This document shows, piece after piece, positions 32,563 to 48,126 of a DNA stretch of 64,000 nt. Position 1 is the stretch's first letter; each line of letters starts with the position of its first letter. Under the pieces are notes generated by a model. It was not told the DNA's origin. It made no database searches and was given only the letters and a program-made list of their open reading frames with translations. The translations under genes were made by a program, and so were the position numbers. This DNA is from a bacterium. Its GTDB lineage: Bacteria; Planctomycetota; Planctomycetia; Planctomycetales; Planctomycetaceae. The stretch covers positions 1 through 64,000 of the forward strand of contig WGMU01000058.1 in NCBI GenBank assembly GCA_016124895.1. The letters run 5' to 3'.

Positions 32563-32596
32563 ACGCCGCAACACGGCCGGAAATTCGGCGCGGCGT
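32563..32596 (-). terminator. Hairpin after the S53 peptidase gene
   Basis: ACGCCGC (32563-32569) pairs with GCGGCGT (32590-32596), with inner GCCG/CGGC potential. It lies about 35 bases past the S53 stop on the minus strand, at the end of the divergent accessory operon. There is no T-run. Confidence 0.4.
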
Positions 32597-32628
32597 GACA
32601 GACCTTCCCAGGATGATTAAGCAGACAA

Positions 32629-34623
32629 TCACTCAGGTCGCAGCTTCGGTCCTTTCAGACCTGACGAGTGGTTCGCGAATGCGACCGTTGATCGTTGTGG
32701 TGCTCGCGCGCGGCGTCCTGCGATTGCCGGTGGTGGCGCCGTTTCTCCGGAGTCGATCCTCTGAATGCCCGCATCCGACAGGAATTCGATCAACATTGTG
32801 CCAACCGGTGAACCGAGCCCCGTGCAGGCGTTCCACCCAGATGCCGGATCACTCTGGGCTCTGACACTGTAAAAGGGAATGTCTGCGTGGCTGACGCAGT
32901 TATCACCCGACATGGCCTGTCGAAACGCATTCGTTCCAATCGCCTGGTAAAGCCGGGCGTTGACGTTGCTCAGACTGGCTCCGCACTTCTGATTGATGCA
33001 GGCCAGCAGCGACGCCCACAGGGGGGCCGCGGCGCTTGTGCCGCCTCCTGCAGTGGCGACACCACCGAGAATGATTCGATACCCCTTTGCCAGGTCGGCC
33101 GACGCGGCAACATCCGGTACGCCGCGGCCTCGAAAGTCAGGGTTGCTGTGGGCCGATGGACTCAGCCAGGTGCCGGAGCCCTTCAGATCGCCCGGACTCG
33201 GTACATTCGCGTCCGACTGCCACTCAGGCTGATTGAAGTGACCACTGATCCCGCCGGTTGAGGCGAGGTGAAACCCGTTGATATGTTCGTTCCAGGCGAC
33301 CTCGCCGTCTGTCTGGACATTCTGATCCGTCAGAATGGTTCCGCCACAGGCCAGCACGTAGGGGCTTGAGGCGGGAAAACAGACGTTGGCACAGGTTGCT
33401 GGACTGGCGGGATTGGGAGGCAGGCCGACAGAACCAAAGTCACCGGACGCGCAGCAGACTGTAATCCCGCTGGCGTGCAGTTGTTTGAGTGGGTCATTCA
33501 GTGAGTTCAGGTCACCGGCTTTGTACCCGGATTCGGTCTTCCCCCAACTGTCGGTGATGACTGTCGGCCGCGTGATGTCCTGCCCGCCAGCGCTGTTGCG
33601 GTCTCCCGCCAACGCGTACAGGGCGAGCCGAAATTCCTGGGTTCCGCCGCCGACAAAGTAAACGTCAATCTCCGCTTCGGGAGCCAGTGCGGCCACCAGC
33701 TCAATGTCCATCGTGACTTCGAGCATGTGTGACCATTCGCCGAAGTCACTGCCGTACTTCATGATGGCGGCTTCGCCATCCTGGTTGACGGCTTCGGTGA
33801 TCTCGGCCAGCTTCTGCCGGTCCATCTGCTGATTCCAGCCTCCTGACAGACCGATCCAGTTGATTTTCGCCCTCGCAGAGAGTCCGAGTTCCTTGAGAAA
33901 CCGGTTGATGTCTTCCAGATAAAAGCCGCCGCCGAATTCGAGAATGGCAATGCGCTGACCGGCTCCCTTGCTGTCCTCGGGAAACTGGTAGTAGTCCGCG
34001 ACGTCCAGCGGGTTCATCAGAGGCAACCCGCTCGCAGTACCCGTCCCCACCATCGCGTCCAGTTGAGCAGCGAAATTCCGGTCGTAGCACGGGATATCAT
34101 CCAGACCCAGCACGGCTTCGACCTTGTCCACCAGTTCGTCGGGCAGATGAATGGCCTCATCATGCGCACGGTAGGAACCGCGATCGTGCTCGTACTGCGC
34201 CAGTTGAACTTTGAATGCCGCGGAGAGGTCGGCTGCCGTTCCTTCCAGTACGACATCGTGGCGAAGGTTCGAGACGTCCACGACATCAAGGTGGTGCTCC
34301 TCCGCAAACATCCGGACCAGTTCGATATCGGCGTCGGCCGGTGCGTAGAGATTCGCCAGTTCGGAGAGCGACGTGTCCCTACTGACGAAACTGCAGGCTG
34401 CTGCACCGGCCCTCTCATCTTCCACGCCACCGACACCCCGGGATTCCGGATGCAGAACCAGTGTGACGCGGAAGCGTTCTGCCGGAACCGATGCAGGCAT
34501 CATCATGCCGGGAAGCGCTCTTGCCATCAGCCTCGACGTTGTGTCGTGGCCCTTCGACAGATCAGCAACTTTGCGGGCACCGCGAAGATGTACGGGGCGA
34601 CTGTCAGGAACTTCTCGTGTCAT
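32629..34623 (-). CDS. S53 (sedolisin/kumamolisin-like) peptidase
   Basis: 664 residues with a pro-domain (about 48-170, starts FRVTLVLHPES) and a catalytic domain (about 205-600). The Ser-Glu-Asp triad is visible: LEVTMDIELVAALAPEA (Glu and Asp), SWG, the oxyanion Asp in CCASGDFG, and the nucleophile in GGGTSAAAPLWASLL. No signal peptide is evident, unusual for sedolisins, which are normally secreted and acid-active; the first about 45 residues are Arg/Ala-rich. Last gene of a minus-strand set (37307 to 32629) with 1-15 base gaps to the preceding two. In the RiPP setting it could remove the leader, but that is inference. Confidence 0.85.
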   Translation of the reverse strand: MTREVPDSRPVHLRGARKVADLSKGHDTTSRLMARALPGMMMPASVPAERFRVTLVLHPESRGVGGVEDERAGAAACSFVSRDTSLSELANLYAPADADIELVRMFAEEHHLDVVDVSNLRHDVVLEGTAADLSAAFKVQLAQYEHDRGSYRAHDEAIHLPDELVDKVEAVLGLDDIPCYDRNFAAQLDAMVGTGTASGLPLMNPLDVADYYQFPEDSKGAGQRIAILEFGGGFYLEDINRFLKELGLSARAKINWIGLSGGWNQQMDRQKLAEITEAVNQDGEAAIMKYGSDFGEWSHMLEVTMDIELVAALAPEAEIDVYFVGGGTQEFRLALYALAGDRNSAGGQDITRPTVITDSWGKTESGYKAGDLNSLNDPLKQLHASGITVCCASGDFGSVGLPPNPASPATCANVCFPASSPYVLACGGTILTDQNVQTDGEVAWNEHINGFHLASTGGISGHFNQPEWQSDANVPSPGDLKGSGTWLSPSAHSNPDFRGRGVPDVAASADLAKGYRIILGGVATAGGGTSAAAPLWASLLACINQKCGASLSNVNARLYQAIGTNAFRQAMSGDNCVSHADIPFYSVRAQSDPASGWNACTGLGSPVGTMLIEFLSDAGIQRIDSGETAPPPAIAGRRARAPQRSTVAFANHSSGLKGPKLRPE

Positions 34624-34624
34624 C

Positions 34625-35542
34625 TCACTGCTGCCTTGAAACAGATTTCCGCGGATCGGATAAGTTCGCCGATGCTACCCGGCCGGGAGCCAGTGGAGAC
34701 AGAAATTCTCGAACAACCGCGTTAAAACGCGGAGCAGCCGTCATGATCAGAAAGTGATTTCCACCGTCGCCGCGTTCAATCACTTCCAGCCGGGCGTTGG
34801 GCATCTGCTGGCTCATCCAGTGGTGCGACTGCCACGGGATGACGCTGTCACGCCCGGCGACGACGAGCGCGGGAAGAGTCACCGTGGGGATGACGTCGCG
34901 CCAGTCCCGCTCACACAGATCCAGAAACAGTGTTGCCGCCGATCTCCGCGGCAGCTTCAGGTTCTCGGCGATGATCCATTCCCGATCGGCGTCGGAAACG
35001 CAGCCGTCGAGCGATCTGGTCAGCATGGTCCGAGTGAATGCGTCGCCGTCGGGACCAGTCAGAGCGGCCGTCATCTGGTGAACCGTTCGCAATTCCATCA
35101 CGGCACCCGCGGTTTCGCACTCAAGAGGTGACCAGCCAGGTCGACGCATCATGCACGGAGGTGATTCGACGATGATCAGCTTCTGCACTCGGTCACTGGC
35201 GAACTGTTGCCAGTAACTCCAGATCACGGCGCCACCCATCGAATGGCCCAGCAGAGTGACGTCCGAAAGGTTCCACGTTTCCAGAGTGTCGTGCAGGTCG
35301 CGGGCGAACTGCGGAATGCTGAAACCGGATTCGACATTGGATGACTCGCCGTGACCGCGCATGTTCAAAGCGATACACCGGAAGTCCCGGCTGAGGTCCT
35401 CAAGCTGAAAGCGAAACTCGCTGGCTGACTGCGACCAGCCGGGAATCATCACCAGAGTCGGCCCGGAACCCGCCTGCAGAAAGTGGAGTCTGGCTCCGTC
35501 GCGAGTCGTCACGTATCCGGAAGTGGCTGGCCCGATGCTCAC
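34625..35542 (-). CDS. Alpha/beta hydrolase
   Basis: 305 residues. The fold is shown by PTLVMIPGWSQSASEFRFQL, IALNMRGHGESS, the nucleophile elbow LLGHSMGGAVIWSY, VVAGRDSVIPW and the catalytic His in DGGNHFL. No signal peptide. It is one base from the S53 gene and 14 bases from the methyltransferase gene, so the three are probably co-transcribed. Substrate unknown: ester or peptide hydrolysis, or acyl transfer, are all possible for the fold. A second paralog lies at 36501-37307. Confidence 0.85.
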   Translation of the reverse strand: MSIGPATSGYVTTRDGARLHFLQAGSGPTLVMIPGWSQSASEFRFQLEDLSRDFRCIALNMRGHGESSNVESGFSIPQFARDLHDTLETWNLSDVTLLGHSMGGAVIWSYWQQFASDRVQKLIIVESPPCMMRRPGWSPLECETAGAVMELRTVHQMTAALTGPDGDAFTRTMLTRSLDGCVSDADREWIIAENLKLPRRSAATLFLDLCERDWRDVIPTVTLPALVVAGRDSVIPWQSHHWMSQQMPNARLEVIERGDGGNHFLIMTAAPRFNAVVREFLSPLAPGRVASANLSDPRKSVSRQQ

Positions 35543-35556
35543 AGCATTCCTCCGGG

Positions 35557-36414
35557 TTACTCCGTGGCGGGGGCAGACTGTCTTGTCGAAATCGAGAAGT
35601 AATACGGTGGAGTCGCAGGAGCGAATAATCGCGGAGCGGTCCCCCAGCGACCGAAGCTGGCGTCCGGATCACCGATCTGCACCGCGCTGCCCTGCCATCC
35701 GAAGTTCGCCAGAAACACGACCGGATCCTTGACTCCCGAATGCAGCGGGCAGCCCATCTCCTGCCACATCCTGAGGAATGGCTGAGCCATTTCAGAGTCG
35801 AAGTACTCGACCGAGGCCATGTCAGCACCGAGCCAGCTTCCCGCACTGGCGACTTCTCCCAGAGCCGCAAACAGTTCCGGGATGGCCGGCTCAGGCAGGT
35901 AAGGCAGCACGCCCTCCATGATGAATGCCGCAGGGCGGGTTCGATCAAATCCGGCCTTCTGCAATGGAGTCACCCAGTCGAATTCCAGATCAGCGGCGAC
36001 CATCTGCCGTGAGCAACGGGGGGTGACGTCCAGATCCCTGAGCACCGACTCCTTGTGCTCACAGACGCACGGCTGATCGACTTCGTAAAGTTGAATTGCG
36101 TTTGGACAGGGAAGCCGGAAAGCGCGAGTGTCCATTCCGGCTCCCAGCAGAACAATCTGGTCGATCTCCAGTTCGTTGACCGCTCGCAGCAGTGCGTCGT
36201 CGTAGTAGCGGGTTCTTATGGAGATCCCCGTCGACGGTGTATGCAGCGAGTGGCCAGGCAGGCACGACTGCATTTTCTCGTACACCTCAAAGCCCTGCGG
36301 ACCAGCCAGCGCCTCGGCGAGTGGATCGTCAAACAGCCGTTTCGGTTGCTGTGTTTCCAGTGCGCGAGCGGCGGCCATGCACAGGGCAGTTGCCTCGACA
36401 GGGGGAAGTGCCAT
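35557..36414 (-). CDS. Leucine carboxyl methyltransferase-like SAM enzyme
   Basis: 285 residues of the LCMT/PPM-type class I methyltransferase family. Landmarks are RTRYYDDALLRAV, the SAM loop IVLLGAGMDTRAFRL, YEVDQP and the FIMEGVLPYLPE segment; the N-terminal KRLFDDPLAEALAG is also typical. Known relatives methylate carboxylates (for example the C-terminal Leu of phosphatase 2A) or hydroxyls of small molecules. In this cluster a carboxyl-methyl ester on the peptide C-terminus would fit, but this is inference. A 14-base gap separates it from the downstream hydrolase, 86 bases from the upstream hydrolase. Confidence 0.82.
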   Translation of the reverse strand: MALPPVEATALCMAAARALETQQPKRLFDDPLAEALAGPQGFEVYEKMQSCLPGHSLHTPSTGISIRTRYYDDALLRAVNELEIDQIVLLGAGMDTRAFRLPCPNAIQLYEVDQPCVCEHKESVLRDLDVTPRCSRQMVAADLEFDWVTPLQKAGFDRTRPAAFIMEGVLPYLPEPAIPELFAALGEVASAGSWLGADMASVEYFDSEMAQPFLRMWQEMGCPLHSGVKDPVVFLANFGWQGSAVQIGDPDASFGRWGTAPRLFAPATPPYYFSISTRQSAPATE

Positions 36415-36500
36415 CGTTGTCTCGTCTGGTGAGATGTGACTGACAGGTATGGTTCGTATGCAGAAGAACTTTCCGAAATCAGCCGCACTCCTGAGAAGAT

Positions 36501-37307
36501 TCAGAAAACGGCAGCTTCCAGGAACTTAAGTACCGTCCGATTGAACGCAGCCGGTTGCTCGAAGTACGCCGAATGTCCGGCACCAGGAATCTCGGCGTAG
36601 GTTGCACCGCTGATACGTTTGGCGATTCCGCGAGCGAGAACCGGCGGCACGAGGACATCATGACTGCCAGTCAGCACCAGTGTAGGGATTCCGGACTTCA
36701 CAATCGCATCTGGTTCAATCTGAAAGCTTCCGAGGCCAGGCAGCAAATCAGGAAACGCCACGGAATTCAAGGCACTGATCTGATTGAGCAGAAACCAACG
36801 TGCGGGATAGCTCGCCTGGAATTCCGGCGTGGCGGCAAGATCGGACCGGGCGATGGGCATGTTACCGCTGTCAGGGCCGGCGTTCTTCAGGTTCAAGCCT
36901 GCATAAAGCTGCGATGGTGACGGCACATTGCCAGCCGGGCGAAACCCGGAGGAGGATGCCGAAAGGACGAGTGCCGCGACGCGTTCGGGATACTCGGTGG
37001 CCAGTCCGGCAACCGTAACGCCGCCCATCGACTGGCCGATCAGTGCGGCACGTTCGATCTCAAGCCAGTCCAGCAGTCCCAGCAGATCGGCGATCAGATC
37101 GGCAGGAGCTGGCGCAGCGGCTCGACATTGCGTCAGCCCGAAGCCGCGATGATCGAACGTAATGACCTGGTAAGACTCAGCGAATTCCGGAACCTGCTGC
37201 CACCAGCTCAAGTGATTTCCGCCAGCGCCGTGAGCAAACACAACCGGTGGACCCGCTCCGGAAACTTCGTAGTAAAGACGAAGGCCGTTCAGATCGGCGT
37301 AAGGCAT
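36501..37307 (-). CDS. Alpha/beta hydrolase, first gene of the divergent operon
   Basis: 268 residues. FAHGAGGNHLSWWQQVPEF, ITFDHRGFG, the nucleophile elbow LIGQSMGGVTVAGLA, LVLTGSHDVLVPP and IPGAGHSAYFE give a complete Ser-Asp-His set. No signal peptide. Transcribed away from the peptide precursor with 190 bases between the two start codons, so the promoters face each other. In fungal borosin pathways a peptidase of the same broad fold family (prolyl oligopeptidase) cuts and cyclises the core; whether this small protein does something comparable is open. Confidence 0.85.
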   Translation of the reverse strand: MPYADLNGLRLYYEVSGAGPPVVFAHGAGGNHLSWWQQVPEFAESYQVITFDHRGFGLTQCRAAAPAPADLIADLLGLLDWLEIERAALIGQSMGGVTVAGLATEYPERVAALVLSASSSGFRPAGNVPSPSQLYAGLNLKNAGPDSGNMPIARSDLAATPEFQASYPARWFLLNQISALNSVAFPDLLPGLGSFQIEPDAIVKSGIPTLVLTGSHDVLVPPVLARGIAKRISGATYAEIPGAGHSAYFEQPAAFNRTVLKFLEAAVF

Positions 37308-37497
37308 GACTTGCCCCTGAGGTCATCTGTTCAAAACACCCTTCGATACATTCGGTTCTGCAATTCCGTGGCAATACTTGCATAACTGGAGCAGAACTGG
37401 TTCACTGAATTCGTACCCGGCGACCGCCGAGTATCGCGATGGGCGGCATTCTGACCGACATGCCAACAGTATTACCAGTTACAGGAAGGCAGACGCG
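37308..37497. promoter_or_regulatory. Divergent promoter region of the RiPP cluster
   Basis: 190 bases between the start codons of the hydrolase (minus) and the precursor (plus). GTTCTGC (37355-37361) and GCAGAAC (37391-37397) are a spaced inverted repeat in the middle, a candidate operator. A shorter one, GGCAT/ATGCC (37445-37464), lies in the precursor leader. AGGAAGG (37482-37488) is the precursor ribosome site. No convincing -35/-10 pair is assigned. Confidence 0.4.
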
Positions 37498-37707
37498 ATG
37501 GACCAGAAACTCAAGGACTTCATCAATGCCACTGGCAGCGATCACACGAAGCTGGGGTCGTTCATCAACGATCCGGAGAAGCATCTGGATGATGCCGGGA
37601 TTACCTGCCCGGACGAACGGCACCTCGTCAAAGTGACCATTGCCGCTGGCGTGTCCAGTAAACTTGCAGGGGACGACGGCCAGCAGTCCTTCATTATCGC
37701 GTACTGA
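37498..37707 (+). CDS. Putative RiPP precursor peptide, split-borosin type
   Basis: 69 residues from ATG 37498, with AGGAAGG 9 bases upstream; the longer open frame upstream is non-coding in character. Residues 1-46 form a helical, charged leader (starts MDQKLKDFINATGSDHTKLG) with NDPE at 24-27 and AGIT at 33-36. This spacing recalls the borosin-binding domain of separate (split) borosin precursors, as far as I remember SonA. The C-terminus runs GVSSKLAGDDGQQSFIIAY, with a hydrophilic linker and a hydrophobic end (SFIIAY, 64-69) like an N-methylated core. It directly precedes YcaO, TfuA and a borosin-type methyltransferase. A strong hairpin separates it from ycaO. Also conceivable: a small regulator, but the context argues against that. 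Confidence 0.82.
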   Translation: MDQKLKDFINATGSDHTKLGSFINDPEKHLDDAGITCPDERHLVKVTIAAGVSSKLAGDDGQQSFIIAY

Positions 37708-37741
37708 GGCGTCGCCTTCTGACACAACTGACGACGAATGG

Positions 37742-37780
37742 ATGCCGTCTCGTGACGCTCACGAGGCGGCATTTCTGTTT
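37742..37780 (+). terminator. 14-bp attenuator/terminator between precursor and ycaO
   Basis: ATGCCGTCTCGTGA (37742-37755), loop CGC, TCACGAGGCGGCAT (37759-37772), with one T-G wobble, then TTTCTGTTT. It lies 35 bases past the precursor stop and 31 bases before the ycaO start. Such leaky terminators let RiPP operons make far more precursor than enzyme. Confidence 0.85.
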
Positions 37781-37810
37781 CACCGGCTGGAATGACTCGG
37801 GTCACGACTT

Positions 37811-39058
37811 ATGACGACAGACCTCTGGCGCGAGATCAGTCAGCTCAGCGGCTCACCGCGTTATCGGTTTGGAACGATGCGTTCGACATCTCCGCGACGG
37901 ACACTCAACCGGCTGCGTCCGCTGCTGCCACTCGCCGGAATCACGCGACTCGCTCGAGTGACGGATCTGGATACCATTGGAATTCCCGTTTATCAGGCGG
38001 TACGTCCCAATTCGCACAACCTGTCGGTCTCTCAGGGAAAAGGGCTGACGCGAGCGCAGGCCCGAATCTCGGCGGTGATGGAAGCTGTCGAGAACTTTCA
38101 CGCAGAGAACATCGAGCTGCCGACGATCCGGGCTTCCATCCGCGAGATCCGGGATCGACTGCATTACGACCCGTATCAACTGGCGACAACCAGTACGCAC
38201 CTGGAAGCCGTTTATCGCGATTCGAGCTACGACGCTCTGGCACCACCCATCGGCGAGAGCCACTTTCTGAGCGACGATCTGCAACTCGACTGGTGGCCGG
38301 CGACGAATCTGGTCACTGGTGAAGAATCGTGGGTGCCGCGTCAGCTCTGCGATCTGAATTTCAGTATCCGCGAGGAGTTCGACGTCTTTCCATTTCGAGC
38401 GACCTCGAACGGACTGGCCAGTGGAAACGCGGTCGTGGAGGCACTGATTCATGGACTCTGCGAGGTCATCGAACGCGATTCGTTCGTCAGAAATGCCGGG
38501 TTCCGGGCCAACCCGGAACGTTACATCCGGCTGAGCAGTGTCGACTCAGCAGTGCCAGCCGGCGTCATTCGCAGGCTGGAGCAGGCCGGGCTCTCTCCAC
38601 TGATTCTCGACGTGACCGGCGAGATGGGAGTTCCGTGCTTTGACGTCGAACTTCGGCAGGTCGATCGTCCGACGTTTCAAGGGTTCGGCTGCCATCCGTT
38701 TCGTGATACCGCGCTGGTGAGAGCTTTAACAGAAGCGGCGCAGTCGCGACTGGCACATATTTCGGGCACACGAGACGATCTGTTTCGGCATACCTATCAG
38801 CCACCGGAAGTGCTCTCCGACATTGACCTGCCATTCGATGAGGTCGCTCCACAGACGCCCGATCCGCAGGGGAACTATTCAGACTGCTGTCATCTGCCGG
38901 GCACGGACTGGAAGGAGATGCTGTTGGAACTGGTGAGCCGCATCGAACGCTTTACCGGGACGGCCCCGCTGGCCATCGATCTGCGTCGCGAAGAATTCGG
39001 CATTCCGGTGACGATGGTGATTGCGCCGGGTCTGCTCAGTCCGGGGACGCGACGATGA
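37811..39058 (+). CDS. YcaO-domain peptide-backbone modifying enzyme
   Basis: 415 residues. YcaO enzymes phosphorylate an amide oxygen with ATP to form azolines, thioamides or amidines. Landmarks: YRFGTMRSTSP (18-28), GITRLARVTDLDTIGIPVYQ (43-62), the ATP loop VSQGKG (73-78), Glu91/Glu94 in MEAVE, SNGLASG (199-205) and CEVIERD (217-223). The C-terminus lacks the proline-rich PxPxP ending seen in azoline-forming cyclodehydratases, and no E1-like or F-protein partner or dehydrogenase is nearby. With TfuA adjacent, thioamidation is the best guess. ATG 37811 fits the domain start although no clear ribosome site is seen. Its stop overlaps the tfuA start (ATGA). Confidence 0.92.
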   Translation: MTTDLWREISQLSGSPRYRFGTMRSTSPRRTLNRLRPLLPLAGITRLARVTDLDTIGIPVYQAVRPNSHNLSVSQGKGLTRAQARISAVMEAVENFHAENIELPTIRASIREIRDRLHYDPYQLATTSTHLEAVYRDSSYDALAPPIGESHFLSDDLQLDWWPATNLVTGEESWVPRQLCDLNFSIREEFDVFPFRATSNGLASGNAVVEALIHGLCEVIERDSFVRNAGFRANPERYIRLSSVDSAVPAGVIRRLEQAGLSPLILDVTGEMGVPCFDVELRQVDRPTFQGFGCHPFRDTALVRALTEAAQSRLAHISGTRDDLFRHTYQPPEVLSDIDLPFDEVAPQTPDPQGNYSDCCHLPGTDWKEMLLELVSRIERFTGTAPLAIDLRREEFGIPVTMVIAPGLLSPGTRR

Positions 39059-40581
39059 GTGTCATTTCCGAGCGACCGCGGATGCGTTTTTATGCCGGGC
39101 CATCGATCCGCTGGAACGAGATCGAAGAGCTGTGCTCAGGACTGGATGCCGTCGTCGAGATCGCTCCGCCCATCGAACAGGGAGACCTGCTGCGTGACCT
39201 CAGTCGCCTGCCCGACGTGATCGGCATCATTGACGGGTACTTCTATCAGGTGCCGTCGGTGCTGCATAAAGAGATTCTGCTGGCGCTCGAAGCAGGCTCG
39301 CGTGTGCTGGGAGCCGCCAGTCTCGGAGCATTGCGCGCTGCCGAACTTGACGTCTTCGGCATGGAGGGCGTGGGCCGGATTTATGAGTGGTTCGCGGACG
39401 GTTCGATTGATGGTGACGACGAGGTTGCCGTGCAGCATGGTCCTGGAGAAATCGGATTCCGCCCGCTGACTGTCCCGCTGGTCAACGTGCGACACGCGAT
39501 TCAGCTGGCGACGGCGCACAGCCTCATCAGCCGGGATGATGGCCGGTCGATTCTCTCAGCGGCTCAGGACATCCATTTTTCCAGACGCACCTGGGGGCGT
39601 CTGTTCGACCACGATCGATTGCGGGCAATTGACGGCGGCGTTCCATTTCGTGAGTTCATTGCTCAGCGGGCTCCGGATCTGAAACATGAGGATGCGCGGA
39701 CACTGGTCGAAACAGTTGTTAAACGCGTCCGCCACCGTCGTGAATGGCCGGACCGGCTGGACTGCCGAGTCAAGTCGTCGAAGTACACCTACCTGATGCG
39801 GCATCAATATGCCGGAAGCTGGTCGGGATCGCGGCATCTCCCGGACAGTCAGGTGGTGTCATTTCAGAAAGTGCTCGATCCGTCGTTTCCAGACATTGTC
39901 GAGTGCGTCGTCCGACGGATTGTCGCCTGTGACGAAGCGGCCCATCGCGGACTGGTTGCGGAATCGCCTGAGGTTCTTGAACGGAAATTCCGCGAGGAAA
40001 CCAACCGGCTGGACAACAGCCACTTTCGCGACTGGCTGAACTGTCAGGGACTGTCGCGCGACGAACTGGTGGCCTGGCTGCGGGCCTGCGATCTCGAACG
40101 CCAGATCGAGGCTGCCGTTTCAGTCTCAGAGTCGCGGGGGCCGCACGCTGTCATTCTTCAGGCCGTTGCCGCGCGCCGCGGACTCGCCGAAACCGATCTA
40201 CCAGCACTGACGCTGTCGCGGCAGACGATCGCGTTTGATCTGCCGCTGATTCGTGAGCTGAAGTGTACGGGGCGTTTTTCGGAAGCGCGTCACGTTGCTG
40301 CTGGCATTCTTGATTCCGTCGATGCCGCGTTCGCTGGAAACCATCGTCTGCGGGCGATCATGGAAGCGCTCGGCGATCTGGTGCGGACGTCTTTCGACGA
40401 ATGGGCGGCGGCCCTGTGGGGCATCCCGACCGAGGCCCTGCCGGCTGAACTCGTTCGTCGTGCGATTCACAGCGGTGCGGAATTCATTGATATCGTGCGT
40501 CTCTGCAAGCTGCATCAGGAACACGGCAGCGGATGCTCGGACTCGTCGCCAGTCGCAACCGTTGACGGGAGCGGGATATGA
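39055..40581 (+). CDS. TfuA-like YcaO partner with a long C-terminal extension
   Basis: 508 residues. Residues about 10-170 are a TfuA domain: IIDGYFYQVPSVLHKEI (58-74), VLGAASLGALRAAEL (84-98), FGMEGVGRIYEWFADG (101-116) and DDEVAVQH (121-128). TfuA proteins work with YcaO in backbone thioamidation, where they are thought to help deliver sulfur. The remaining about 320 residues are helical, Arg/Glu-rich and unlike a plain TfuA protein of 200-250 residues; they may bind the precursor leader or the methyltransferase. No cysteine-rich sulfur site stands out. Both ends overlap neighbouring genes by four bases, so YcaO, TfuA and the methyltransferase are translationally linked. Confidence 0.9.
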   Translation: MSVISERPRMRFYAGPSIRWNEIEELCSGLDAVVEIAPPIEQGDLLRDLSRLPDVIGIIDGYFYQVPSVLHKEILLALEAGSRVLGAASLGALRAAELDVFGMEGVGRIYEWFADGSIDGDDEVAVQHGPGEIGFRPLTVPLVNVRHAIQLATAHSLISRDDGRSILSAAQDIHFSRRTWGRLFDHDRLRAIDGGVPFREFIAQRAPDLKHEDARTLVETVVKRVRHRREWPDRLDCRVKSSKYTYLMRHQYAGSWSGSRHLPDSQVVSFQKVLDPSFPDIVECVVRRIVACDEAAHRGLVAESPEVLERKFREETNRLDNSHFRDWLNCQGLSRDELVAWLRACDLERQIEAAVSVSESRGPHAVILQAVAARRGLAETDLPALTLSRQTIAFDLPLIRELKCTGRFSEARHVAAGILDSVDAAFAGNHRLRAIMEALGDLVRTSFDEWAAALWGIPTEALPAELVRRAIHSGAEFIDIVRLCKLHQEHGSGCSDSSPVATVDGSGI

Positions 40582-41411
40582 CCGAATCAGCCGCCAGAGT
40601 CGGTTCTCTGTCAGTCGTGGGTACAGGGATCCGGACGGCAGGACAGTTGACGACAGAAACCATCGAACGCATTCGACGTGCGGACATCGTGCTGTTTCTG
40701 GGCAGCGACCCGGCGCTCGAATCGATCCTGCAGACGCTGAACAGCAATCTGGAGTCGCTGGCAAGTGTGTATTCTCCAGGCGGCAACCGCGGCGACAGTA
40801 TTCGGGCACTCGCCGAGCGCATTGTCGCTCCGGTCCGACGCGGGCTGACGACCTGTGCCGCTCTGATGGGGCATCCCGGTGTGTTCTGCGTCGCTGGTCA
40901 CAACGCCGTACAGATCGCTCGACAAGAAGGCTTCATCGCCCGGATGCTGCCGGCCGTTTCCGCCGAGGACTGTCTGTTTGCGGACCTGGGAGTTGATCCA
41001 TCGACGGCCGGGTGTCAGAGCTTCGAGGCCATGCAGTTGCTCCTCAAGAACTACCGCATCGATCCTCGCTGTCATCTGATCCTGTGGCAGATTGGTGTGA
41101 TGGGCGATCCGATCTTTCGACCGCAGGGCTACGATCTGTCGGCGCTGCCATTGCTGATCGAACGGCTGTCAGCGGAATACTCGGCGGACCACGTCGTGAC
41201 TGTGTACAGCGCGACGCTGCAGGAAGCCGGATTCCCGTCGATTCGGCAGACGCCACTCGGCGGGCTCAGGAAATCACTGCTGAGTTCTGCATCGACGCTT
41301 TATGTGCCGCCGCTCGCCCCTGCCGAACCGGATACCGAGGTCGTCGCTCGACTGCGAGCCGTCGGCTTTCCCGTCGAACTTTATCTGCGGTCGTTTGACC
41401 ATTTCCGATAA
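40578..41411 (+). CDS. Borosin-type peptide N-methyltransferase (tetrapyrrole-methylase fold)
   Basis: 277 residues. The N-terminal VVGTGIRTAGQLTTETIE (13-30), GHPGVF (98-103) and above all ARMLPAVSAEDCLFADL (121-137) with DPSTAGC (140-146) match, from memory, the same blocks in the fungal borosin enzyme OphMA far better than in cobalamin-pathway methylases. Such enzymes use SAM to N-methylate successive backbone amides at the C-terminus of their own or a separate peptide. Here the enzyme has no fused core, so it would act in trans as in SonM/SonA. Tyr65 and Arg71 align with active-site residues, but the position of a catalytic-region Tyr (Y76 in OphMA numbering, as I recall) is Ile75. Confidence 0.9.
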   Translation: MTESAARVGSLSVVGTGIRTAGQLTTETIERIRRADIVLFLGSDPALESILQTLNSNLESLASVYSPGGNRGDSIRALAERIVAPVRRGLTTCAALMGHPGVFCVAGHNAVQIARQEGFIARMLPAVSAEDCLFADLGVDPSTAGCQSFEAMQLLLKNYRIDPRCHLILWQIGVMGDPIFRPQGYDLSALPLLIERLSAEYSADHVVTVYSATLQEAGFPSIRQTPLGGLRKSLLSSASTLYVPPLAPAEPDTEVVARLRAVGFPVELYLRSFDHFR

Positions 41412-41536
41412 GCAGCGTGCCTGCGCCAGACCGTTGAGCCCGTTTGTGCCGGCTGATTTCGGAAACCCGTTCCGGACAGTTTTCCAGGCGACCGCCGCGG
41501 CCGGTCGAGTCTGGTACGAAGCCTGAAGGACTGGAA

Positions 41537-44032
41537 TCAGTAAACCAGTTCGGTGCCGAAGTAGAAGTTCCGGCCAGGCTGATAAACGCCGCGGCCGGTC
41601 CGCAGATCGAGATGCTCGCGGTAGAACTTGTCCGCGAGATTCTCGACACCAAAGATGATCGAAAGATTGTCTGTTGGACGGAACGCCGTGCGGATATCAA
41701 AGGTCGCGAAGCCGGCGGTTGCCTGCTCATTGAGCGTGCGGGCGACCCGATTCTGGCTGCTGACAAGACGGGTGACGAATTCCGCCGACCAGCGATTTGA
41801 GACAGGGTCGTGCAGCCGCAGGCCGAGGCGGGATTCGAGGGGCGCGATACCGGGCAGCGCTTCGCTGTTCGCCGTAACGACTGTGCCTGTGGGGCCGACG
41901 TCGACTCCGCGCGGCAGACTCGGATCGTAGGTGACCGTGCTGTTCGCGAAGTCGAAGGTGTGCTGTCCGCCCTTCGAACGGGTGTGGTCCTGACCGCGAA
42001 CATAGCTCAGCGTCGCGAAGCCGGTCAGCCAGTCGTTCATGTCGTATTCGCCAAACATCTCGCCGCCGGTCAGCGTCGCCAGTTGAGTGTTCGTCGGACG
42101 CAGGACCAGTGAATTGAAGCCAAAGAACGTTTCCTGATTGAGGATGTTTTCATACGTGACGAAGTCGTTGACCCAGGAGTGAAAACCATTCGCCCCCAGG
42201 CGGAGGTTTCCGTAATCGGCTCGCAGACCGAGGTCGAGCTGCGTGCTGCGGGCAGGCTTCAGATCAGGATTTCCGACGACGGCATTCAGGCCGTTCTGCA
42301 GTACCGCCAGGAAGCTGCCGAAGGCGTACATTTCCGTAATGGTCGGCGGACGCTGCGAGTGACCGGCTCCGAATGTCAGCGTGACTTCGTCCGAGAGGTC
42401 GTACTCGGCTGTCGCGAACAGTGCCCACATCTGGTAACTGCGATTGAGACTCGAAACGGCCAGCGTATGCAGCAGCGAGTCTCTGGTCACCGGCATCTGG
42501 CCCATGGGATTGAAGTCATTCCCCGGCGGGATCGAATCGACGTCGGCCGTCTGCCAGTCAACGCGGGCACCAGTACGGAAGCGGAAGGGCTCATTGACCG
42601 GAGAATTCAACTCGATGAACAGACCGGGATTGCTGGTGTGTCCGTCCGGCACTCCCGAGAAGATCGGCAGTGGAAGACCAAAGCCGGGCGAAAGGCTGAA
42701 CTCGTTGATCTCCTGCTTGAGATACCTCAGGTCACTGCCGGCCCGGAGATTCAGATCGTCCTGATCGCCCCAGGTCAAAGCGGACGTGTAGCCGGTTGAA
42801 GACGTATCGGCGGCGGTGTAGACGTATTCAACGAAGGCATCGAGCTGCGGGACCTGGTTACGTTTCGACGGCGAATTGCCGTTGCCCGAGAAACGCGTCC
42901 GGTTGTACCAGCCCTCAATTTCAAAGCGGTCGAACGCCGACTGATCGACGATCTCGTACTTCAGTTCGTAACCATCCGTGACCAGATAGTCGATATCAAA
43001 GAACGCTCCAGGGAACTGCACGCCGGTCTGGTCCAGTCGCAGGTAACTGAACTCGATGCGGCTGTCGTCGGTGGGGTCATAGCCAAGTGCGACGTCCCAG
43101 TCCCGTGAATTCAGACTCGACGGAAGCTTCTGTCCGTCGCCTGCGGTGTAATCATTCGCCGTTCGATGACCGTATCCGACGCGGTAGCCCCAGTTGTCAT
43201 CGCCACCCGTGAGCATCTGACGTCCGTAGAACGCTTCGCCATTCGTCTGATATTCCAGACTGGTGCTGCCGTGCGTTTCCTGACCGTCGGAGTACCGCGG
43301 GCTCTGCTGGAGCTGAAAGTCAACAAAGTTGAGGCCTGGTCCGTGTTCGACACTGTACGGCCCCTTGGTCACGATGACGTCGCTGATAATCCGCGAATCG
43401 ATCTTGCTGAGCATCGTGTCCATGTCGTCGCGGGCTGGATACCAGTACGAACCGGAGGCTTTCAGATTGCCGAGCCCCAGGCCGCGCACGCGCGTGTCCG
43501 TCACGATGGGAGATCGGCGTTGCGATGCGACACCGACGGCAGCGTTCGACTTGAAGAGCAGGCTGCCGACATCCGATGTCGCGCGACCTTGTGACTCATT
43601 TCCCTGAACGACGATCGATCCGGGAGCCCGCGCACGCCGCAGGCGGGAACTGGCCAGCAGACTCGACTGCAGATTGTTGTCACGAAAGATCCGTTCCGCC
43701 AGGAGCTGCGACTGTTCCGGTTCCGGAGCCTGCGGTGTGAGCATCGACGGTTCCGGAAGCAGAGGCTGAGCCACATCCTGGCTGACCAGTCGCACGTAAC
43801 CGACGTCCGCGGCATTGGGATCCACCCAGGGGGTCGTCGACTGAAAGACCGCGGTCACGTCGCCAAAGGTGAGTCCTTCGTCTTCCGGCGAGTCGAGTTC
43901 AATCATGATGACGGCCGGAGGCGCCGGCTCCGCGTCCGTCAGTGGATCATCTGCACTCGCAGCGGCGCTGGACAGCAGCAGCAGAGCGGCCGACAGAGCG
44001 GTCGACGATTTCCATCGAAGCGGATGGAACAT
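41537..44032 (-). CDS. TonB-dependent outer-membrane receptor
   Basis: 831 residues with a signal peptide (TALSAALLLLSSAAASAD). A plug domain (about 130-255) contains VRGLGLGN and SVEHGPG; the rest is a beta-barrel ending in the classical GRNFYFGTELVY with a C-terminal aromatic. VENLADKFYREHLD near the end is typical of the last strands. About 100 residues separate the signal peptide from the plug, longer than usual; no clear TonB box is picked out. Such receptors import siderophores, other metal chelates, cobalamin or peptides. It is convergent with the methyltransferase gene, 125 bases away, so uptake of the cluster product or its metal complex is possible but unproven. Confidence 0.85.
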   Translation of the reverse strand: MFHPLRWKSSTALSAALLLLSSAAASADDPLTDAEPAPPAVIMIELDSPEDEGLTFGDVTAVFQSTTPWVDPNAADVGYVRLVSQDVAQPLLPEPSMLTPQAPEPEQSQLLAERIFRDNNLQSSLLASSRLRRARAPGSIVVQGNESQGRATSDVGSLLFKSNAAVGVASQRRSPIVTDTRVRGLGLGNLKASGSYWYPARDDMDTMLSKIDSRIISDVIVTKGPYSVEHGPGLNFVDFQLQQSPRYSDGQETHGSTSLEYQTNGEAFYGRQMLTGGDDNWGYRVGYGHRTANDYTAGDGQKLPSSLNSRDWDVALGYDPTDDSRIEFSYLRLDQTGVQFPGAFFDIDYLVTDGYELKYEIVDQSAFDRFEIEGWYNRTRFSGNGNSPSKRNQVPQLDAFVEYVYTAADTSSTGYTSALTWGDQDDLNLRAGSDLRYLKQEINEFSLSPGFGLPLPIFSGVPDGHTSNPGLFIELNSPVNEPFRFRTGARVDWQTADVDSIPPGNDFNPMGQMPVTRDSLLHTLAVSSLNRSYQMWALFATAEYDLSDEVTLTFGAGHSQRPPTITEMYAFGSFLAVLQNGLNAVVGNPDLKPARSTQLDLGLRADYGNLRLGANGFHSWVNDFVTYENILNQETFFGFNSLVLRPTNTQLATLTGGEMFGEYDMNDWLTGFATLSYVRGQDHTRSKGGQHTFDFANSTVTYDPSLPRGVDVGPTGTVVTANSEALPGIAPLESRLGLRLHDPVSNRWSAEFVTRLVSSQNRVARTLNEQATAGFATFDIRTAFRPTDNLSIIFGVENLADKFYREHLDLRTGRGVYQPGRNFYFGTELVY

Positions 44033-44414
44033 GATGATTCCTGACGGTCAGAACGCGGGACAGCGTGGCCTCGAGCCTGCCCTCAGACGCTCCAGTACCA
44101 GCCCGGCAGACGACAGCCAGCGGGTCGTTCCGTCAGGTCCAGCAGTAGGGATTGCCCGAAGTAGCACGAATCCCCGTGTTCTTCGGACGTCGCGTATCCT
44201 GCGGTTTACCGCGATTGAAAGCCGTCAGCGGATACAGCGAATGATCAGTACAGACGGACGCCGGTCGTTCCGGTCAGGTAAATCGTGCCGGCTTTGCTGC
44301 CCGAATGCGTACTGGCGTGAGTACGCCAGTATCAGAAGATCGGGTGGCTTCCTGCGGGTGGCTGTAAGGGTCCAGCGTTCTGGAAGCGGACATTTCAGGG
44401 TGAGCCACAGCCGC
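44033..44414. promoter_or_regulatory. 382-base region upstream of the TonB receptor, with a palindrome
   Basis: No gene. At 44311-44330 ACTGGCGT-GAGT-ACGCCAGT is a perfect 8-bp inverted repeat (one more A-T pair outside). It lies about 280 bases before the receptor start and 85 bases after the kinase stop on the minus strand. Without a T-run it may be an operator or a hairpin in the kinase transcript end. Confidence 0.45.
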
Positions 44415-47400
44415 TCAGTTTGAGGCTGGCGTTTCAAGCAGTGATTCGCCTTCGTGTCGCAGCCTCAGCAGTTCGAGATTTCCAGGCTGCTGCGCGTCCA
44501 TGACGGCGATGCCCTGCGTCAGATGCTGGCGGGCATCCTCGCGATTACCACGCTGTGCTTCGGCCAGTGCGAGCACGAATTCATCCGCGGCGTTCTCCCG
44601 CTGTCGGAAGCTCTTCGCCACGGTGACGCAGCGGACGCACTCGGGCAGATCGTTGTTCCGCAGGGCCGCCAGCGCCCGCAGGTTCCAGTACCGGCTGTTG
44701 CGCGGTGCGGCGTCGGTCGCCTGAGTGCAGCGTTCAAACGCTCCAGCCGCATCCTGAAACGCGGTCACCGGACAATGCACGAGCAGAAACGCGAGATCGT
44801 GAAGCCGTTCGGGTGAAACCGAATCCTTGACCAGCCGGCTCCATTCCGCGAATGCACGGGCAAACTGCTTTGTTTCCGGATCTGGCTCGCCGATTTCGTG
44901 CAGCAGCATTCCGTAATGAAAGCTCGACCAGGCCAGCGCATTACGTGCGTCGTCGTCGGTGTTGTCACGAGTGAGTAACTGATCGAGAACCAGCAGAGAT
45001 TTGTTGAACGCCTCCGCAGCTTCGGAGTGGCGACCGGTTTTGTGCAGCGTTCGCCCCAGACTCGTCAGACTGATGCCCAGGCGACGCTGGTATTCCGGCA
45101 TGTCCGGAACCTCTCCGGCCAGTCGGTCGAACAGCGCGATCGAATTCTCGAACAACTGAATCGCCGAGTCGTCTTCATTCAGATCTCTCAGGATCATGCC
45201 GAGAGTCGACGAGCACGTGGCGTGCGCGTTGAGGTACGTGTCGGCGTCCGGAAACCGGGTCAGCAGTGCGGTCAGCCGTTCGAGCGCCTCCATGCCATAG
45301 GGTCGTGCATCGAACCCTGCCCCCTGCTGGAGCAGAATCTGCGCAATATTGATCTGTGTGACCGCGGCGTTCCGCTGGTAATCGGGAATTCCCGGCCGAG
45401 CATCACTCAGCAACTCAAAGTCTTCGAGAGCCGATTGATTCTGCTCGAGTGCTTCATTCGACTGACCGAGTTCTCCCAGCGCATTCGCCAGTGCGACTTT
45501 GCTGCCGGCCAGTCCTTCAAAATAGCGCGGGTTGTCGCGGTGCCGCAGCGTCAGGTCGCTGTATTCAAGGCGTGCCTGTTTGAGCGCCGTAACGGCAGCC
45601 TCTGCATCGCCGAACTGAAGCTCGATGGTGCCTGCAATGTCATCAGCGGCGGCCAGTCGGAAACGGTATTCGTCGAGATCCTTCTCGGCGACCAGAGCAT
45701 CGAGCTGACTGCGGGCGCGTGTCAGGAGATTACGGGCCTGGTCTTCATCCCTGAGCCGAGCCGCGACGCGCGCCCGATTGAGCAGTAACGTGGCGAGTGC
45801 ATCGCGCGCCTGCGCCTGCGGACTGTCACTTGTGACCAGCGGCAGCAGCAGCGTTTCGGCCCGATTGAACAACCGCGTCGCTGCGTCGCTTTCCCGGCGA
45901 GTCTCGTTCAAGGCGGAGAGCCGGCCGCAACTGATGGCCTGCTGGATCACGTATTCGGGCTCGTCTGGAACCTGCTTCGTGAGTGCTTCAAATGTTTCAA
46001 TCGCTCTGGCGTAAGCGGCGGCGGCTTCGTCTGACTGCTTCAGCGTCATCCGCACATCGCCCAGCCGATACCACGCGATGCCGGCTTCGGCGCGAATCTC
46101 TGGAACATCGCTTTTCTCGGCCGCAAATCGCTCATAGTCAGAGGCGGCTTCCTGCAGAAGCTGTTCTCGAACCGGGCCGGCGGCGGGGAAGTATTCGAGT
46201 ACGGAGCTGAAGCCGGTCAGTGATTTGTCGACCGCATCCCGTGCCTGCTGAAAATGCTGGAGCGCTTCGCTGCGGGCCGCTTCGGCCGCTTCGCGTGCCT
46301 CACGCTCAGCAACGTACGCCAGATTCGCTCCCGCCCTCGCTGTTGCTTCGTCACGCCGGGCAGACTCAATCCAGATTCCGGCGACGGTACTGACAATCGC
46401 GATCAGAATCAGCGAAGTGGAAATCGCCTGCGCCCAGGTACGGTGTCGACGCAGCCAGCGCAGTGCCTTCACGGAAAACGGCTCAGAGAAGCAACTGACC
46501 GGCTCGTCGGCCATCCAGCGTCGAACGTCATCGGCCAGTGCCGTCGCCGTCAGGTAACGGTTCTCGGGTTTGAGTGCCAGGGCTTTGCGACAGATCGCGT
46601 TCAGCGGTCTGGGGACCCAGCCTTCCAGATCGCGCGGTTCGGGGATTTCACCGCTGCCGATGCTCATGAGCATGGCGTTCGTTCCGCGATGCGTTGATCC
46701 GTCCTTGCGGCGGCTGTTCGGTGCCACTCCGGCCAGGATGGCAAACAGGATTCCTCCGAGTCCGTAAATGTCGGTGGCGATTCCCATGCGCGAACGTTCG
46801 CCCAGCGCCTGCTCCGGAGCCATGTACGCGGGCGTGCCGATAATCTGCCCGTCCCTGGTCATCATCTGCTGTTCGGGGTCGGCCGATTCGACATTGGCGA
46901 GCGCGACGTCGTCTGCATGCTCACCCAGAAAGGTTGCCAGTCCCCAGTCCAGAACGATGACCTCGCCGAATTCTCCCATCATCACGTTGGATGGTTTCAG
47001 ATCGCGGTGCATGACTCCGTGATCGTGCGCGTAGGCGAGCGCATTGCAGACTCCGACAAAGCAGTCGAGCAACTGCCGCAGCGCCATCCAGTTGATGCCG
47101 CTCTCCAGCCGATCCTGATGAAACCGCTTGATGTAGCGTGCCAGCGTTTCGTCCTTCACGAAACGCATTGTGTAAAACGGCTCGCCGTCCTCGGGTCGGT
47201 GCCCGAGTTCGTACACCGGGATGATATTCGGGTGCTCGAGCAGCCCGGTGATCTGAGCTTCGCGAACCAGCCGCTTCGTTCCTTCCGGCGAGCCTTTTCC
47301 AGGGATGTTTTCCTTCAGCGCGACTTCGCGTTTGAGTAACGGGTCGCGGGCCAGCCAGACCTGCCCGAGACCGCCTGCTCCCTCAACTCGCGTCAGCAGA

Positions 47401-47930
47401 TAACGTGTACGCGTTCCCTGCGGACGCACCTCCCGCTGGCGCTGGATTGTCTCATCCGATTCCCCTCTGTCCGGATCCTTTCCGTATTGAGCCGTGTGGT
47501 CGAAGTCCGCTTGCGGCTCGGACGTGAGATAGGTCACGTCCAGATTCAGAGGGACGGATTCAGCGGAAGGGGCGACAGCTCCAGACACTGCTGACGCCGA
47601 ACTCGCGCCAGCCGGTGGGGGCTCTGTCTGGAGATATTCGCCGAGCACTTCATGCACTACGGCTTTGCAATCCGGCGAGACGTCGTCGTCGTGTGCCACC
47701 AGCTCCTGCAGTGCAGCGCGAAGCTGGCCGTCCGACTCAGCGACCTTGCTGTCGACCTGCGCGATCACGTCGTTCAGCGTCTGAGTGCCCACCCAGGATT
47801 CAAGCAGCTCGTCGATCTCGGCCTGTGGTTCGACGAGGAGAACTCTGGCCACCTGACGGAACCGCTCGATCGACAGCAGTTTGCAACGAAACGCTGTCAC
47901 GGCGATCAGAAGGTTGCGGACCTGCGACAT
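44415..47930 (-). CDS. Hanks-type Ser/Thr protein kinase with TPR repeats
   Basis: 1171 residues. Kinase domain at about 177-470: glycine loop EGAGGLGQVW, Lys206 in VALKENI, HRDLKPSNV (308-316) and DWG (328-330, in place of DFG), then GTPAYMAPEQ (365-374). One membrane helix at about 500-520 follows, then a long TPR-rich region probably in the periplasm. The N-terminal 100 residues contain a helical domain seen before kinase domains in planctomycetes. Catalytic residues are present, so it should be active; DWG is a common variant in this phylum. Target unknown. Upstream promoter region 47931-48126 shows nothing notable. Confidence 0.9.
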   Translation of the reverse strand: MSQVRNLLIAVTAFRCKLLSIERFRQVARVLLVEPQAEIDELLESWVGTQTLNDVIAQVDSKVAESDGQLRAALQELVAHDDDVSPDCKAVVHEVLGEYLQTEPPPAGASSASAVSGAVAPSAESVPLNLDVTYLTSEPQADFDHTAQYGKDPDRGESDETIQRQREVRPQGTRTRYLLTRVEGAGGLGQVWLARDPLLKREVALKENIPGKGSPEGTKRLVREAQITGLLEHPNIIPVYELGHRPEDGEPFYTMRFVKDETLARYIKRFHQDRLESGINWMALRQLLDCFVGVCNALAYAHDHGVMHRDLKPSNVMMGEFGEVIVLDWGLATFLGEHADDVALANVESADPEQQMMTRDGQIIGTPAYMAPEQALGERSRMGIATDIYGLGGILFAILAGVAPNSRRKDGSTHRGTNAMLMSIGSGEIPEPRDLEGWVPRPLNAICRKALALKPENRYLTATALADDVRRWMADEPVSCFSEPFSVKALRWLRRHRTWAQAISTSLILIAIVSTVAGIWIESARRDEATARAGANLAYVAEREAREAAEAARSEALQHFQQARDAVDKSLTGFSSVLEYFPAAGPVREQLLQEAASDYERFAAEKSDVPEIRAEAGIAWYRLGDVRMTLKQSDEAAAAYARAIETFEALTKQVPDEPEYVIQQAISCGRLSALNETRRESDAATRLFNRAETLLLPLVTSDSPQAQARDALATLLLNRARVAARLRDEDQARNLLTRARSQLDALVAEKDLDEYRFRLAAADDIAGTIELQFGDAEAAVTALKQARLEYSDLTLRHRDNPRYFEGLAGSKVALANALGELGQSNEALEQNQSALEDFELLSDARPGIPDYQRNAAVTQINIAQILLQQGAGFDARPYGMEALERLTALLTRFPDADTYLNAHATCSSTLGMILRDLNEDDSAIQLFENSIALFDRLAGEVPDMPEYQRRLGISLTSLGRTLHKTGRHSEAAEAFNKSLLVLDQLLTRDNTDDDARNALAWSSFHYGMLLHEIGEPDPETKQFARAFAEWSRLVKDSVSPERLHDLAFLLVHCPVTAFQDAAGAFERCTQATDAAPRNSRYWNLRALAALRNNDLPECVRCVTVAKSFRQRENAADEFVLALAEAQRGNREDARQHLTQGIAVMDAQQPGNLELLRLRHEGESLLETPASN

Positions 47931-48126
47931 CGTAGCTCTCGGTCACCAACGAAAACGGGTATCACTGCTGTGGCACAGTGTACGGTGCTGCGTCGAATGG
48001 TGCTCTGCGACAGGCCACGCTCACGGGTCGCATGGCCACTGGTCGTTGACTGAATCCGGCGAGAGCGCGTCCGGGTGTTGAGTGCTGGCCAGGCAGGGGC
48101 CGACTCATGCTGCAGCCGAAGCTTTT

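Follow-up and report, generated by a model that had tools for sequence, protein, structure and literature searches.

The systems closest to the one reported here are the borosins, either fused, as in the fungal OphMA and dbOphMA, or split, as in the type IV pair SonM/SonA of Shewanella oneidensis, and the thioamidation systems built on YcaO and TfuA. TfuA is the partner of YcaO in backbone thioamidation. In the case of OphMA, the i-1 carbonyl is hydrogen-bonded by Tyr66 and by Tyr76, the latter backed by Arg72; these two tyrosines also stabilise the imidate, and the i-2 carbonyl is bound by Tyr98 (PMC6108569). The Y76F, Y98F and Y98A variants showed no methylation on purification, with traces in Y98A after 12 days; Y76F and Y98A were found aggregated (PMC6108569). 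For SonM, kcat/KM was ~98-fold lower in Y71F and only 1.6-fold lower in Y93F (PMC8429565). How borosins activate an unreactive peptide amide is still a matter of debate: the tyrosine at the Tyr76/Tyr71 position is assigned a central role as stabiliser, yet a SonM mutant is partly active. As for thioamidated RiPPs, the text of a 2021 survey of their clusters (PMC8120280) leaves a tetrapyrrole-type methylase unmentioned.

In the window, by which we mean the whole 64,000-nucleotide stretch of a Planctomycetaceae contig (WGMU01000058.1) that was analysed, one operon carries elements of both kinds of system. Like SonM/SonA, it has a stand-alone methyltransferase, from the family to which SonM belongs, and a small precursor in which a helical leader of the borosin-binding-domain (BBD) type is followed by a hydrophobic C-terminal core. 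Unlike in SonM/SonA, genes for YcaO and TfuA sit between those of the precursor and the methyltransferase, and the residues equivalent to Tyr71 and Tyr93 of SonM are Ile75 and Met97. Adjacent YcaO and TfuA genes are common to this operon, to the thioamidated RiPPs and to the thioamidation of the McrA glycine, whereas the BBD leader and the borosin-family methyltransferase set it apart from thioamidated RiPPs. Its parts belong to known families. Literature joining borosins with YcaO or thioamides was limited to passing mentions, and the combination on one BBD-led precursor, taken together with the natural loss of both tyrosines, was not found described in the openly searchable literature, a scope outside which the main bacterial borosin surveys lie; an earlier mention is possible.

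The operon and its precursor

The first gene of the operon (37498..37707, plus strand), with AGGAAGG ahead of its ATG, encodes a peptide of 69 aa, laid out as a BBD-like helical leader (approximately residues 1-56) and a short C-terminal core region that ends in GQQSFIIAY and, being hydrophobic, resembles those of other borosin precursors. When compared by phmmer with 15,130 frames taken from around other borosin methyltransferases, it matched frames lying just upstream of the methyltransferases of loci L068, L036 and L079 (2e-5 to 4e-5). An independent leader profile, for which one of these precursors was combined with about 60 relatives and the window left out, had this ORF as its sole match among the 1225 frames of the window (E 8e-4). 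In the AlphaFold2 model (pLDDT 77) the helices form a bundle and the tail is disordered; the top PDB match of this model is SonA, a match that is weak by itself (E 5.5; VIA Z 4.0); phmmer against PDB sequences gave no match, SonA being missed by this single-sequence search. No second copy of the leader was found when the whole genome was searched with the leader alignment, which contains the window's own row, so that the E-value of the window in that search is not independent. The profile and phmmer matches thus provide the separate, BBD-led precursor by which a split borosin is recognised. The core is encoded in trans by this first gene, which explains why the methyltransferase has none fused to it.

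Between the precursor stop and the YcaO gene lies a strong hairpin (37740..37774, plus strand) with a 16-pair stem, followed by a T-rich stretch; the region has an MFE of -27.8 kcal/mol (z -4.1). It is possibly an attenuator or terminator, and may set the ratio of precursor to enzymes. Rfam gave no match in the window, and a promoter scan of 37200-41600 returned nothing.

The second gene (37811..39058, plus strand) encodes YcaO, an ATP-dependent enzyme that activates the amide backbone (Pfam YcaO 3.4e-62; NCBIfam TIGR03266 1.1e-52, under its cut-off; best PDB sequence MJ1094, 3e-24), and overlaps by 4 bases the gene of a 508-aa TfuA-like protein (39055..40581, plus strand; Pfam TfuA 3.7e-42; NF033432 2.5e-55, under its cut-off; PDB 6xp8 2.6e-36). 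Both are single in the genome and, among PDB and NCBIfam entries, closest to the archaeal pair that thioamidates the McrA glycine. Given these Pfam matches, the gene adjacency that marks thioamidated RiPPs is present, and family knowledge suggests that the pair would form a thioamide. The C-terminal part of the TfuA-like protein (39721-40581), ~285 residues past the TfuA region, gave no Pfam match; locus L054 has a TfuA protein of comparable size (506 aa).

The last gene (40578..41411, plus strand) starts with an ATG that overlaps the stop of the TfuA gene by 4 bases, and encodes 277 aa. Its GC3 of 0.68 is normal for the window, and no unusual GC3 was seen. The first-pass annotation had placed this protein among the borosin-type methyltransferases, an assignment that is borne out both in sequence and in fold. 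Beyond its Pfam TP_methylase match (8e-18), phmmer against PDB sequences retrieved dbOphM (1.1e-55), OphMA (~1e-52), SonM (7e-50) and MroMA (3e-49), and among 350,542 chains the first matches of its AlphaFold2 model (pLDDT 88) were OphA, dbOphMA and SonM (Foldseek 2e-29). The fungal fused enzymes thus provide the best match in sequence and in fold, with a VIA Z of 29.7 and 2.1 A over 259 residues for OphA; siroheme and uroporphyrinogen methyltransferases reached Z ~18, far below the borosin enzymes. The annotation had also stated that no core is fused to the enzyme, and indeed the frame stops ~12 residues past the methyltransferase fold, with neither the clasp nor the core of OphMA and dbOphMA. 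This is the only borosin-type methyltransferase of the genome; a second TP_methylase match, on a different contig, is only remotely related to it. PADLOC found no matches among the operon proteins.

The methyltransferase active site

The enzyme aligns with OphMA without gaps from the N-terminal strand to GHPGVF, so that Tyr65 corresponds to Tyr66 of OphMA and Tyr58 of SonM, Arg71 to Arg72 and Arg67, Ile75 to Tyr76 and Tyr71, and Met97 to Tyr98 and Tyr93, where the SonM numbers were obtained from the conserved spacing, with an offset of +4 (PMC8429565). The retention of Tyr65 and Arg71 and the presence of Ile75 where a tyrosine is expected, both proposed by the first-pass annotation, are therefore confirmed; an Ile75 outside the equivalent position, which the annotation had named as its refutation, is not what the alignment shows. 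Met97, the separate precursor gene and the single-copy state of YcaO, TfuA and the methyltransferase go beyond what had been annotated. A sequencing error behind Ile75 and Met97 was considered and rejected, as their codons (ATT and ATG) are each at least two changes away from any tyrosine codon; so was a misalignment, given the absence of gaps and the conserved blocks on either side.

The conservation of these residues in homologs was examined in 91 relatives from many phyla, from which three divergent tandem second methyltransferases had been taken out by hand. Most of the loci were found with two scan patterns; position 75, which is part of neither, is a tyrosine in all 91. At position 97 there are 90 tyrosines and one glutamate, a count biased by the inclusion of Tyr97 in one of those patterns. 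Position 71 is an arginine in 89 of the 91, and position 65 is a tyrosine in 76 and an asparagine in 15. The enzyme of the window differs at only three of the 58 columns with at least 90% conservation (Y75I, M78L and Y97M), and the lock residues of SonM R67, F99, E146, W166 and Q167, whose roles are described in PMC8429565, are kept as R71, F103, E150, W170 and Q171. Since 55 of the 58 columns and the lock residues are intact while both tyrosines are lost, the peptide-gripping side of the active site is changed and the remainder retained, a focused change rather than decay. Of the conserved Tyr/Arg network with which the family methylates amides, only the equivalents of Tyr66 and Arg72 are present, with Ile75 and Met97 in the other places, and for this reason we would class the enzyme as borosin-like by descent, and not as a proven borosin N-methyltransferase.

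Other borosin loci and the surrounding genes

Relatives were missed when genome contigs were scanned with the protein alone, but an alignment-based scan of species genomes did find them: the 79 loci listed out of 567 confirmed relatives, with 17 others, make up the 96 loci examined (94 distinct contigs). A TfuA homolog was found at none of these 96 other borosin loci listed (tblastn, 1e-3) and a YcaO at only two, both cyanobacterial and lacking TfuA, in flanks of ~8 kb at most for the majority of loci, some ending at contig ends, so that more distant neighbours would be missed. In one of the two (L116:1237-3543) YcaO is a 768-aa fusion protein encoded 4.4 kb upstream of the methyltransferase, and in the other (L086:1069-1731) it is a partial frame 0.4 kb upstream; these may be another combination, that of a borosin with an azoline-type YcaO. 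The TfuA search of 397 genomes of the class yielded two other loci, both in genomes without a methyltransferase match, and the YcaO search of 294 genomes of the phylum one other locus. Plasmid-borne borosin methyltransferases have different neighbours, where annotated. On plasmid p155_2 of Bradyrhizobium sp. 155 (L036:4769-7768), a TauD-type dioxygenase lies with a BBD precursor between two borosin-type methyltransferases, one of which has Glu at the OphMA Tyr98 position.

The tree places the enzyme of the window among 22 normal enzymes that form a supported set (SH-aLRT 96); its branch is long, 1.06 against a median of 0.3. At three loci (starts at L083:8787, L096:2254 and L118:8814), a second borosin-type methyltransferase is encoded directly behind a canonical one. 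These second enzymes form a clade of their own (SH-aLRT 96), have G, W and G in place of Arg71 and C, C and V in place of Tyr75, respectively, and are changed in 11-17 conserved columns. They resemble inactive partners and might form part of heterodimers.

Upstream of the precursor gene, and divergent from it, lies a run of minus-strand genes (32.6-37.3 kb), which starts with an alpha/beta hydrolase (36501..37307; Pfam Abhydrolase_1 5e-29) and goes on with an LCM/TIGR00027-family SAM methyltransferase (35557..36414; Pfam LCM 1.3e-52; TIGR00027 6.5e-67, above its cut-off), a second alpha/beta hydrolase (34625..35542; Pfam Abhydrolase_1 2.3e-24) and a kumamolisin-type (S53-like) protease with a pro-domain (32629..34623; Pro-kuma_activ 5.6e-15, Peptidase_S8 5.2e-9). 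The first hydrolase and the LCM methyltransferase are possible tailoring genes of uncertain membership in the cluster, an uncertainty that extends to the second hydrolase. The protease might be the leader peptidase, a role we only infer; it was not found in the other members of the family that were searched.

The whole run, first hydrolase included, lies in ~15 kb (window 32600-48100) that have no orthologous DNA in the congener G001 and are bounded by shared GGDEF and PPC-domain genes. The flanks of the congener align up to window position 32577 and resume from 48130, on different contigs, with 2.3 kb beside the left junction that find no match in the window. That the block (~32.6-48.1 kb) is accessory is suggestive only, the G001 assembly being fragmented and 84% complete. 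The same block holds a TonB-dependent receptor gene (41537-44032, minus strand), convergent with the operon, whose closest NCBIfam model is a copper receptor (6e-48, under its cut-off); a metal-binding role for the operon product is a thought only.

Function of the operon

On the basis of family knowledge, we tentatively favour a hybrid split-borosin/thioamidation RiPP operon in which the methyltransferase acts on a core modified by YcaO-TfuA, so that the precursor, YcaO, TfuA and the OphMA/SonM-type enzyme would together yield a peptide with a thioamidated and methylated backbone. The helical leader would dock on the methyltransferase in the fashion of SonA on SonM, offering the short C-terminal core, and YcaO, with ATP and TfuA, would convert at least one core amide to a thioamide. 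In the methyltransferase, the SAM site, the lock residues and Arg71 are all kept; the loss of the two tyrosines holding the i-1 and i-2 carbonyls would most likely reflect a substrate that is no longer an ordinary amide there. The N-H of a thioamide is more acidic than that of an amide; because of this, and with a sulfur that is larger and a poorer hydrogen-bond acceptor, the function of Tyr75 would become dispensable, and N-methylation could then take place at or next to the thioamide. The order of these steps, the methylation site and the activity on a modified core are those that family knowledge would suggest. An altered methylation pattern and a dependence on prior YcaO modification, both offered as possibilities by the first-pass annotation, would fit the evidence. 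In favour of this hybrid are the overlapping operon genes with one BBD-type precursor, the only one of the genome, the closeness of YcaO and TfuA to the McrA pair, the restriction of the methyltransferase changes to three of 58 conserved columns, and the co-occurrence of a TfuA neighbour with altered tyrosines, neither of which is found at the 96 other borosin loci listed. Against it, the Y76F and Y98A/F variants of OphMA show almost no activity towards amides (PMC6108569), the long branch could mean relaxed constraint, the precursor-SonA fold match is weak alone, and the co-occurrence, as a single example, is beyond statistics.

The main rival, unlikely in our estimation even if it fits the evidence nearly as well, is a catalytically silent enzyme that would bind the leader and present the core of the BBD precursor to YcaO-TfuA. 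In other YcaO pathways the leader is held by an RRE domain, and no RRE-like family match was obtained among the operon proteins; together with the retained BBD leader and the absence of both tyrosines whose loss inactivates OphMA, this agrees with such a scaffold. Altered second methyltransferases next to normal ones are indeed known at L083, L096 and L118, yet those have lost 11-17 columns, Arg71 among them, unlike the enzyme of the window, which keeps all its SAM-site and lock residues and 55 of 58 conserved columns, and a scaffold would not need Arg71. The long branch would also fit a decaying gene with no current role, which we consider very improbable in view of the full-length frame in an overlapping operon, the same intact columns and the confident model.

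It is distinctly unlikely, too, that the operon is an ordinary split borosin, in which a rearranged or slower site N-methylates unmodified amides and YcaO-TfuA modifies other residues independently. The hydrophobic C-terminal core, like that of other precursors, would suit it, and the tyrosines are not strictly required because SonM Y71F and Y93F retain some activity (98-fold and 1.6-fold lower efficiency; PMC8429565); however, Y75I and Y97M together go further than either Phe substitution alone, and all 91 relatives, which act without YcaO, keep Tyr75. Least probable of all is the transfer of the methyl group to the thioamide sulfur, with formation of a thioimidate, instead of to nitrogen. 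Such a sulfur is a good nucleophile, and the tyrosines gripping the carbonyls are lost; we know of no precedent for such a reaction. In the geometry of the family, moreover, it is the nitrogen of the amide that lines up with SAM (PMC6108569).

Returning to the preferred hybrid, the operon appears to join two rare backbone alterations, sulfur insertion and N-methylation. A natural enzyme without both tyrosines, beside a thioamidation pair, offers a direct test of the role of these residues and of whether thioamidation primes the backbone for alkylation, and raises the question of the substrate for which it evolved. That a borosin-family methyltransferase has been retuned to methylate a backbone into which YcaO-TfuA, working on the same BBD-led precursor, has brought a thioamide, and thus defines a combined thioamide/N-methyl RiPP class, is possible, if doubtful. 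If the enzyme is active, it would yield peptides altered in two ways in their backbone, both of interest with regard to stability and permeability and, were the retuned reading true, it would be an enzyme capable of alkylation at a thioamide bond.
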